The notes under the pieces: model-generated
Databases searched by the model: none
The model's input: only the letters and a program-made list of their open reading frames with translations
Told to the model about the DNA's origin: nothing
Assembly (NCBI GenBank): GCA_028874335.1
Contig: JAPPJY010000016.1
Span: forward strand, 231,180 to 295,179
DNA: 64,000 bases
Direction: 5' to 3'
Source: Gemmatimonadota bacterium
Lineage (GTDB): Bacteria; Latescibacterota; UBA2968; GCA-2709665
Translations under genes and position numbers: made by a program
Shown: positions 4,518 through 14,272 of the stretch, piece by piece
How the letters are laid out: every line of letters starts with the position of its first letter
Position numbering within the stretch: the first letter of the stretch is position 1

Positions 4518-5708
4518 CTATGCGAAGTAATTCCGCCGGATTGATGCGGGAGGGGTGCGATCGATGGGATTGTCCGACGCGAGTTCCAAGGCGAAACCGA
4601 TGGGCGCGGGACCCGGATCGTCGAAACGTACATTGTATGTCGTGCAGCCCCAGCGGTCGCCGGTCGCGACGGCATCGAAAGCCTTGAATTTTCGCCGAAT
4701 CGGATCGTACGCGAGCCGCCCATACAGATCCAGTTTCAATCCGCGAGGCTTGTCAACCGTCAGGCCGCTGTGGGGATTGGATTCGAAACTGGGTTCCCCT
4801 TCCAGGTGGATGCGGCCCGCCGTGCGGAGCCGGACGAGGTCGGATTGGACAGTTTCGACCGTCAGGCTGATCTCTCCGTCTTTCAGGTCTTCATCCTTCC
4901 ATCCGTGCGATTGACCGCGGGCCGTATCGATGAATTGATTCAGGGCGAGACGCCTCGTGAAAAAATCCGGCGCGCGAAAGGTCTGACCGTGCCCGGCATT
5001 TTCAGGCACGAGTGACAGGGCCTCCTCTTTGGTAAACCACGCGAAGTCGATGTTGTGCCGGGGGTCGACGTCGCCGGAGTTCCGCGGAAGGTCGCGAACC
5101 GTGACTTTCAGCACAAGGCCGTTTTCCGGATAGGACCATCCGAGCCTGGGATCGACTGGATAGGTTTCGGAAATGTCGGGCGAATCGCTGCTATCCGGGC
5201 GTTTCCGCCACCGTTCGAGGCTTTGCTCGAGCACTTCCAGGAGCGGGGCGGCATCCCGCGTGTTGATGGACCCCAGCAATTCGCCGTCCGAGGTACACGC
5301 GTACAGGCCCTGCCGGGTGGCCGTGGGTTCGGTGACTCCACCGTAATGGCCCTGTTCGGCTACCTGGCGGAAGAATTCGCCCTTGGCGTCTTTCTGCGTC
5401 TGGGTATAGCTGCAGTTGTCCGCAACGGGAATGTAGGATTCGTTGAGGATCCGGATAATCTTCGGATGGGAGAAGACGGACTCACGGCCCGCGATGCCGT
5501 TGTTTCAGACGCAGCCGAGCGGGTTTCCGTTCATCGCCCAGATAAACAGCGGTCTCCCCACCGAAGCCGCGCGTCGCCGGGCAGTCCAGAGATCGGTCTC
5601 CCAGCCGATATCCGTCCACCGCACTTCCTCTGGCTTTGACCTGATCAGCGAGGACAGAGATTCCATCGTTTCGGGACCGGGTTTCCATTTCTTTTGTCGA
5701 TCGGTCAT
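4518..5708 (-). CDS. Thioredoxin-like protein with in-frame TGA at 5505-5507; candidate selenoprotein
   Basis: Single frame: MTDRQKKWKPGPETMESLSSLIRSKPEEVRWTDIGWETDLWTARRRAASVGRPLFIWAMNGNPLGCV-[TGA]-NNGIAGRESVFSHPKIIRILNESYIPVADNCSYTQTQKDAKGEFFRQVAEQGHYGGVTEPTATRQGLYACTSDGELLGSINTRDAAPLLEVLEQ...; AAAGGAG lies 6 nt before the ATG at 5708. ORF track shows two pieces (5505..5714 and 4518..5279) in one frame. Confidence 0.75.
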
Positions 5709-5759
5709 TTCCATCTCCTTTGCTTTCTCAACTCTCGAGGGTCGAGGTTCCCTAATGGC

Positions 5760-5943
5760 GGGGAGACGGGAGACGTAAGACGGTAGATAAGATCAATGCC
5801 GGGTATGTTATTCCTCGTTGCCTCCGGCACGAGAGGAATCCTCACAGGGCAGGAAATCTCTAACCTCTCCCGGCTTACGTCTCACCAGGTGGTGGTGCGG
5901 GGTGTGGTTCTCTACCCTCTCCCGGCTTACGTCTACCCGGTTT
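5760..5943. repeat. Dispersed palindromic intergenic repeat, copy A
   Basis: gggagacgtaagacggtaga ... ttcctcgttgcctccggcacgagaggaatcctcacagggcaggaaatctctaacctctcccggcttacgtctcaccaggtggtgg ... tctaccctctcccggcttacgtctaccc; homologous to 58265-58497 (inverted) and 14078-14205. Confidence 0.75.
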
Positions 5944-11706: not shown

Positions 11707-12834
11707 TCAGTCCTTCACGACCCGGGTATGCGTGTACTGGTTTGAATAGTTTCTCATATTTCCCGTGGCGTAGACCTGCTTGATCGCCGTAGCCGGCAGC
11801 CAGTGGATAAACCAGTTGTTGTAGACATCGCAGATATCCCGCGGTATTCCCCGGATGACCACCGCTTCCACGTCGACGGCTAGAAACGTGTTGTGGTGGA
11901 TGAGAATGAGGTTTCCGGCAATGTCCGTTCCGTCTTCGCGGTCTCTGCCGCCGTGCATATCGAAGCTGTGGCTGTTGGCATTCTCCAGAACCATGTTGTA
12001 TCTGGCCTCGTAGCTGGTATTCGGCCTGCCCGTACCCGCGATGTGGTGCCGGCACCAGTCGAACAGGTTGGCTTCGATGAGCGCTTCGGAATTGTCCATC
12101 ACCACGCCGTAACCCAGACCGTGGCGCTGATTGTGGTGGATATAGTTGTGATGGATGTGGTTGTCCGTGGAATTCCTCCGGAGGAAAATCGCGCCGTGGC
12201 TCCAGCCCCAGAGTTCGCAGTTGTCCACCTTCAGCCTCGGTTGGAAGGTCTCGATGGCCCTGGAGTTGGGTATGCTGTAGAAACGCCCTTCCGACAGGAG
12301 CTGGGTCATCTGTTCGGTGCGCCTCATCGAGTCCGGTCCCTCCAGCCTGAGGCCGGTCAGGCGAACGTCGGGACCGATGGCGACAAACAACGGGGCCGTA
12401 TCCAGCTGTTCCGAAAAAATAAGGCCGCCGTCGGAATCGGGCTTGCCCCGGCCGCTGGCCAGCGTGACGCCCGCCCGGATCTCGATGTCCGTATCGCCGG
12501 TCAGGTCCACCCTCGCGGTATCCGCCACGTAGACCACCTGCCCGCCCGTCGCCTGCTTGAGCGCATCCAGCAACTCCGACCGGCTGGTGACGAAGTAGTC
12601 GTACTCCTCAACCAGTTGATCGTATCCCTCGCCGCCGCCGATGGGATTGCCGGTGGGGTTCGAGTCGGCCCCGAACTTGTCGTCCGATAGCAGGGCGCGG
12701 TTGCTCAGGTCCCGTCCGCCCGTCGGCTCAGTGGGCTCCGGTTCGGGCGCAGGGGGCGTTTCCTCGCCGCCGCAGGAAGGGACGAGAAACAGCAATGCGA
12801 GAATGGCAAGCAGCTTGTAAACGGATGTTGACAA
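11707..12834 (-). CDS. Right-handed beta-helix lipoprotein (NosD/pectate-lyase-like), paralog 1
   Basis: MSTSVYKLLAILALLFLVPSCGGEE lipobox; TDNHIHHNYIHHNQRHGLGYGVV parallel beta-helix repeats. Confidence 0.7.
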   Translation of the reverse strand: MSTSVYKLLAILALLFLVPSCGGEETPPAPEPEPTEPTGGRDLSNRALLSDDKFGADSNPTGNPIGGGEGYDQLVEEYDYFVTSRSELLDALKQATGGQVVYVADTARVDLTGDTDIEIRAGVTLASGRGKPDSDGGLIFSEQLDTAPLFVAIGPDVRLTGLRLEGPDSMRRTEQMTQLLSEGRFYSIPNSRAIETFQPRLKVDNCELWGWSHGAIFLRRNSTDNHIHHNYIHHNQRHGLGYGVVMDNSEALIEANLFDWCRHHIAGTGRPNTSYEARYNMVLENANSHSFDMHGGRDREDGTDIAGNLILIHHNTFLAVDVEAVVIRGIPRDICDVYNNWFIHWLPATAIKQVYATGNMRNYSNQYTHTRVVKD

Positions 12835-12913
12835 TGTCGGACCTCATCCCGTGGCGAAAATCGCCACGCTCAACATCGCGTATCTCATCAACAGATCGTC
12901 CTTCGCACTTCTC

Positions 12914-14047
12914 TCAGTCCTTGACGACCCGATCGTTGGTGTACTGGTTTGAGTAGTGGCGGACGTTGCCCTTGGCGTTGGTCTGTTTGACGGCGACGCT
13001 TGGGACAAAGTGGATGAACCAGTTGTTGTAGATGTCGCAGTATTCTTCGGGTACGCCCCGGATGACGACAGCCGCCACGTCGATGGCCAGAAACGTGTTG
13101 TGATGTATGGTGATAACGGTGCCGGCGATGTCCGTACCGTCGCCCCGGTCCCTGCCGCCGTGCATATCGAAGCTGTGGCTGTTGGCGTTTTCCAGGACCA
13201 GGTTGTAGCGGGCCTCGTAGCTCGTGCCCGGCCTGCCCGTGCCTGCGATGTGGTGCCGGCACCAGTCGAACAGGTTGGCCTCGATCAGCGCTTCCGACTG
13301 ATCCATCACCACGCCGTACCCCAGACCGTGGCGCTGGTTGTGGTGGAAATAGTTGTGGTGAATGTGGTTGTCCGTGGAATTGGCCCTCAGGAAAATCGCG
13401 CCGTGACTCCAGCCGAAGAGCTCGCAGTTGTCCACTTCCAGCCGGGATTCGAAGGTCTCGATGCCCCGAGAGTTGGGGATACTGTAGTACCGTCCTTCTG
13501 CACTGAGCTGCCTCATTTGTTCCGTGCGCCTCATCGTGTCCGGGCCCTCCAGCCGGAGTCCGGTAACACGCACGCCGGGGCCGGCGGCGACAAAGAGCGG
13601 AATCGTCTCCAGTTCCTTTGAGTAAACCAGCCCGCCCTCGGTATCGGGCTTCCCCCGCCCGCTGGCCAGCGTGACCCCGCCGGCGATCTCGATTTTCTGG
13701 TCGCCCGTAAGGTCCACCCTGGCGGTGTCCGCCAGATAGACCACCTGGCCTTGGGTCGCCTGCTCGAGCGCGTCGAGCAGTTCCGCCCGGTTGGTGACGA
13801 GGTAGTCGTATTCCTCGACCAGTTGGTCGTAACCTTCACCCCCGCCGATGGGATTGCCCGTGGGGTTCGAGTCGGCGCTGAACGTGCTGTCTGATAACAA
13901 GGGTCTGGGCTGCCGGGGGGTGTTGTCCGTGGTCTCGGCAGGCGCGGGCTCCGTCGCCGGGGCGGCGGGTTTTTCCTCCCCGCCGCAGGCCGCAAGGAGA
14001 ATCATTACGCCGAGACAGGTGAGCAGCTTGCACAACTTTGTTGGCAT
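12914..14047 (-). CDS. Right-handed beta-helix lipoprotein, paralog 2 (tandem duplicate)
   Basis: MPTKLCKLLTCLGVMILLAACGGEE lipobox; near-collinear with 11707..12834 (TDNHIHHNYFHHNQRHGLGYGVVMDQSEALIEANLFDWCRHHIAGTGRP). Confidence 0.7.
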   Translation of the reverse strand: MPTKLCKLLTCLGVMILLAACGGEEKPAAPATEPAPAETTDNTPRQPRPLLSDSTFSADSNPTGNPIGGGEGYDQLVEEYDYLVTNRAELLDALEQATQGQVVYLADTARVDLTGDQKIEIAGGVTLASGRGKPDTEGGLVYSKELETIPLFVAAGPGVRVTGLRLEGPDTMRRTEQMRQLSAEGRYYSIPNSRGIETFESRLEVDNCELFGWSHGAIFLRANSTDNHIHHNYFHHNQRHGLGYGVVMDQSEALIEANLFDWCRHHIAGTGRPGTSYEARYNLVLENANSHSFDMHGGRDRGDGTDIAGTVITIHHNTFLAIDVAAVVIRGVPEEYCDIYNNWFIHFVPSVAVKQTNAKGNVRHYSNQYTNDRVVKD

Positions 14048-14077
14048 AGACACCTCGCGTACACACCACCCGGTAAG

Positions 14078-14205
14078 TGGGAAGACGGGAGACGTTAGAC
14101 GGTAGAAGAAATCCTTGCCCCTTATGTTATTCTTCCTTGCCTCCCGCACGAGAAGAAGGCTAACAAGGCAGACAATCTCTCCCCTCTCCCGTCTTGCGTC
14201 TAACG
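14078..14205. repeat. Dispersed palindromic intergenic repeat, copy B
   Basis: gggaagacgggagacgttagacggtagaag...ttattcttccttgcctcccgcacgagaagaaggctaacaaggcagacaatctctcccctctcccgtcttgcgtctaac. Confidence 0.65.
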
Positions 14206-14272
14206 GATTCAAGTCTCCATTCTCGATAACCGGCCCCGCAACGCGCGATTGGAGTCCCGATCGGAATGCTGT

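Follow-up and report, generated by a model that had tools for sequence, protein, structure and literature searches.

In a 2026 review, 119 prokaryotic selenoprotein families are listed (PMC13188914), and among them we recognised none with the motif and architecture of the protein described here. One of them, the thioredoxin-like selenoprotein Sec.1 (PF13192; PMC13188914), likewise has a CxU motif in a thioredoxin-like fold, but PF13192 matched 0 of 39 members of the present family at E 0.01. The proteins of Thioredox_DsbH/DUF255 (PF03190; 3ira and 7tkv) and Thioredoxin_7 (PF13899) share the thioredoxin fold and use CxxC, whereas in our protein, whose Sec aligns with the leading Cys in the CHWC of 3ira, Gly stands in place of the second Cys, an extra Cys lies two residues before Sec and the remaining sequence is different; each of these two Pfam families was matched, weakly, by a single one of the 39 members. 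The best structural match is the C-terminal thioredoxin domain of 3f9u (DsbD-like), where Sec aligns with the leading Cys of CVNC, but the identity is 17%, 3f9u has no Sec, and the membrane part of DsbD shows no sign in our protein. NF041383 (VPGUxxT thioredoxin-like (seleno)protein, type 2, OS_HP5) also comprises a Sec-bearing thioredoxin-like domain, and 4 of the 39 members matched it weakly in their N-terminal part, the best being L010 (residues 54-126, E 8.6e-4). These matches make a common thioredoxin-fold ancestor plausible, and the present family might accordingly be taken for a divergent branch of NF041383; we consider this unlikely, since the best match scored 19 bits, far below the cut-off of 275, and covered only about 70 positions within the thioredoxin domain, and the protein studied here was itself not matched. 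This protein matched no family in Pfam, NCBIfam or PHROGs, and none of the 39 members reached a family cut-off in NCBIfam. No paper naming the family was found in the open-access literature; an earlier description elsewhere is possible. As predicted from sequence, this is a large and widespread family of thioredoxin-fold selenoproteins, occurring in three phyla and not found in current protein-family catalogues.

The gene is located on the minus strand of the window, i.e. the whole 64,000-nt stretch of DNA analysed, which belongs to a 5.43-Mb draft genome. It spans positions 4518-5708, with a coding frame from the ATG at 5708 to 4521 (396 aa) and a TAG stop codon at 4520-4518. The frame is interrupted by a single in-frame TGA (5505-5507, minus strand) at codon 68, within GC-V-U-NNG. 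A Shine-Dalgarno-like AAAGGAG (5715-5721, minus strand) was located 6 nt upstream of the ATG, which another in-frame ATG precedes by two codons. The initial annotation had described this frame as open apart from the TGA and preceded by AAAGGAG, and both points were borne out. It had also read the two sides of the TGA as one protein, in agreement with our finding that relatives of 91-31% identity have the two halves joined in a single frame, each with exactly one TGA, placed at the equivalent residue; the single TGA in the frame is thus not due to chance. The list of open reading frames for the window shows only the part downstream of the UGA. As standard gene calling ends the gene there, and as a relative is present in about a quarter of 395 Planctomycetota genomes, many genomes probably have it misannotated. 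The intergenic region immediately before the gene contains, at 5857-5934, a pair of 26-nt direct repeats (96% identity) that lie 52 nt apart.

Searches of 65 Latescibacterota genomes revealed 20 relatives (the window gene included) in 18 genomes, the other members being 38-91% identical to the window gene; each of the 20 has one internal stop only, a TGA at the same residue. Relatives with TGA at this residue were also present in 7 of 85 Poribacteria genomes (45-46% identity) and in Planctomycetota (about 32% identity), where 112 of 395 genomes had a relative with a single query and 106 of 395 with a profile (E<=1e-10). The Sec motif conserved across the phyla is MNG(N/H)PLGC(V/T)-U-NNG, and in all 57 UGA genes compared the TGA is found at the equivalent residue. 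Searches of viral contigs and plasmids gave no relative. A distant protein of the Poribacteria phylum (L084:1501-1743; AISVDGPLADEACUGSGKNLRAVVLSDDRIIEFLNENF) was picked up as a weak relative (E 7.7e-4) and may be another thioredoxin-like selenoprotein, with the motif C-U.

The initial annotation had noted that a point nonsense mutation or a sequencing error in a Cys codon, leaving a pseudogene or an assembly artefact, could account for the TGA. Either would leave a frame that is open but for a single TGA, as seen here, and TGA is one base away from TGC and TGT. However, the same TGA is present in every close relative and in three phyla, Cys is found in no relative, and the half downstream of the TGA is conserved at the protein level. 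Because independent assemblies share the TGA, this explanation is excluded for practical purposes. The homologues had been expected to carry Cys or UGA at the site; UGA was found in all three phyla, whereas Cys was found in none, so that the expectation of Cys did not hold. With the site written as Cys, the Latescibacterota profile recovered the same 20 relatives and no others, and neither a single sequence nor a profile so written detected a Cys homologue in Latescibacterota, Poribacteria or Planctomycetota, the three sampled phyla to which this result applies.

Among the 150 Planctomycetota profile matches listed, 129 had a TGA and 21 did not; 13 of the latter were partial matches that stop short of the Sec site. 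The remaining eight (L088, L089, L091, L092, L093, L094, L096 and L097) cover the site and are paralogues that lack Sec as well as the neighbouring Cys while keeping the rest of the protein, MNGHPLGCTUNNG being replaced by GHPLGPGPG, GHPLGTGDE, GNPLGLPDF, GHPLGSTSK, GHPLGDTST, GHPLGATSS or similar; possibly they are a non-redox descendant. Two residues before Sec, 55 of the 57 UGA genes read completely or nearly so have Cys and one has Ala (L085), the last one (L058) being cut at this residue, so that the residue printed there is not real; outside this set, the residue is Ala in L090 and Val in L095. Since the Cys is replaced in some UGA genes, Sec is the more constant of the pair. We lean towards the view, drawn from these comparisons, that Sec is obligatory in the family, being kept or lost together with its partner Cys and never swapped for Cys. 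If so, Latescibacterota, Poribacteria and Planctomycetota would share a redox reaction in which selenium is irreplaceable by sulfur, and the family would offer a way to ask which chemistry needs selenium.

The bSECIS element of bacterial selenoprotein genes is modelled as an apical loop of 3-9 nt on a stem of 4-16 bp, 16-37 nt from the UGA, with a G among the first two nucleotides of the loop and an MFE of -7.5 kcal/mol or less (PMC13188914). Two hairpins named in the initial annotation, ACGGC/GCCGU (5500-5484) and UCUUC/GAAGA, can be drawn, but they were rejected as the conserved element because covariation was lacking: in the former, 0 of 5 pairs were changed on both sides, and the latter was 60% paired, the same as in shuffles. 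The structure sought downstream of the TGA was instead found as a covarying stem-loop at 5492-5476 (minus strand), GCGGGC-CGUGA-GUCCGU, a candidate bSECIS whose loop begins 18 nt past the UGA. In the family, the conserved element has a 6-7-bp stem and a CGUG(A/C) loop at this distance. RNAalifold, run on 22 sequences aligned without gaps, picked out the stem unaided at columns 34-39/45-50, where 5 pairs show compensatory changes; taken as a 7-bp stem, it was 92% paired and 6 of its 7 pairs were changed on both sides. The covariation score was 0.540, compared with 0.276 +/- 0.036 for shuffles (reached in 0 of 500) and no more than 0.143 for slid versions.

Because the stem sits inside coding sequence, a synonymous control was used, in which the genes of 32 representatives (80% identity cut around the site) were each recoded 2000 times with their own codon usage. 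A stem of 5 bp or more at precisely this position was seen in 25 of the 32 representatives, whereas in the recodings the number averaged 4.3 and never exceeded 10; the paired bases totalled 164 versus 51.8 (maximum 84). In addition, the Arg codon that opens the loop is CGT in 50 of 57 genes, in which CGT makes up 12% of the Arg codons. The window gene alone was not above its own synonymous control (P 0.08-0.22), and the case for a SECIS is one that rests on the family, not on this gene alone. The window stem-loop agrees with the bSECIS model in stem (6 bp), loop (CGUGA), G (second, followed by U) and spacing (18 nt). Its energy is modest, the -7.0 kcal/mol falling slightly short of the published limit of -7.5, within which 19 of 52 members fall. 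The single-sequence MFE for the window gene corresponds to a different pairing (z = -0.5), some Planctomycetota members have a stem of only 4-5 bp, and 5 of the 57 genes have no stem at that place.

The machinery for Sec insertion, which the initial annotation had proposed to look for, proved to be complete in the same genome. Contig C54 carries selA (550 bits, cut-off 268), selB (356 bits, cut-off 242) and tRNA-Sec (selC; 73 bits, anticodon UCA) side by side in one cassette, and selD is on contig C95 (L040:1402-2600). The latter is itself a selenoprotein gene, with an in-frame TGA in LARTCGUAAK, at the known Sec position of SelD. The gene selA was above the cut-off in 46 of 65 Latescibacterota genomes, comprising 18/18 genomes with the family and 28/47 without it (Fisher 6e-4). 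Among the Planctomycetota, selA was present in 91 of the 95 genomes that carry a UGA member, compared with 162 of 300 others (Fisher 3e-16, a value that ignores relatedness); the four UGA-bearing genomes in which selA was not detected are perhaps incomplete bins. Of the genomes whose sole site-covering member is Sec-less, G165, G242 and G366 showed no selA and G379 and G446 have it. One Planctomycetota genome that retains a UGA member of the family has a selA match (G396:C70:13854-15215) interrupted by one TGA and one TAA; this selA is either decaying or poorly assembled. A selenoprotein family of this kind may partly explain why these lineages retain the costly Sec machinery.

Apart from Sec insertion, the UGA could be read through by near-cognate suppression or under genome-wide recoding, or the two halves could be separate proteins. 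UGA read-through is known in other bacteria, and a TTG at 5279 could start the downstream half. That TTG, however, falls within the thioredoxin fold, several family members end with UGA as the terminal stop, and neither possibility fits with the complete Sec machinery, the Sec-containing SelD, the stem of bSECIS type and the association with genomes that have selA; we regard both as very improbable. Sec insertion, as the initial annotation had proposed, is supported because the UGA is conserved across three phyla, the machinery is complete, selA co-occurs and the stem-loop covaries. On this comparative evidence, the gene almost certainly reads its UGA stop codon as selenocysteine. To the whole explanation, namely a predicted selenoprotein decoded by SelB and tRNA-Sec(UCA) via the stem-loop and acting as a two-domain oxidoreductase with Sec in a thioredoxin fold, we assign a probability of roughly 95%.

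An AlphaFold2 model built with six sequences, a number that restricts its depth, was of medium confidence (pLDDT 66.5, pTM 0.60) and suggested two domains. The N-terminal one (about residues 28-172; 5193-5627, minus strand) has the order E54-58, Sec68, H82-91, E93-97, H103-121, E134-138, E144-148, H153-168, i.e. a beta-alpha-beta-alpha-beta-beta-alpha core with Sec in the loop past the first core strand, where the active site of such folds lies. With this domain, Foldseek gave 3f9u (E 4.1e-4) and 7tkv (E 7.2e-4), and a 30-sequence profile placed 3ira and 3f9u at the top, with weak scores (E about 0.06; 0.065). The earlier call of a thioredoxin-like protein is thus upheld by the Foldseek matches and the profile alignment, and of the view that the TGA occupies a redox-motif-like site beside a Cys, the part concerning the site stands, as Sec aligns with the first active-site Cys, and the part concerning Cys in homologues does not. 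The CxxC or UxxC motif of thioredoxin-fold oxidoreductases is not present; the site is C-x-U-N-N-G, and a C-x-U-x-x-G site in a thioredoxin fold would be an unusual and testable redox arrangement. The C-terminal domain (about residues 173-396; 4521-5192, minus strand) is predicted from the model strands to be beta-rich and has no confident relative: a PDB search with the full-length profile gave weak matches only, none convincing for this domain.

SelB and tRNA-Sec(UCA) would decode the UGA as selenocysteine, guided by the short CGUGA-loop stem 18 nt downstream, a role suggested by its conservation. Sec68 would replace the attacking first cysteine of CxxC in the N-terminal thioredoxin fold and attack the substrate, and Cys66, which precedes Sec68 by two residues, would probably act as its resolving partner. 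Since Sec-less members lose both residues together, the two may be a working pair. Selenenylsulfide chemistry with a reductase or peroxidase-type activity would be expected from this arrangement, and the C-terminal domain perhaps binds the substrate.

The neighbourhoods of the 20 relatives had no shared partner gene beyond close kin and gave no operon clue. By eye, no signal peptide is evident in the window protein, and many Planctomycetota members start with a hydrophobic stretch resembling an export signal. Elsewhere in the window (11707-14212, minus strand), two adjoining paralogous genes of 375 and 432 aa were noticed, which by eye appear lipoprotein-like with a right-handed beta-helix and perhaps encode polysaccharide lyases.
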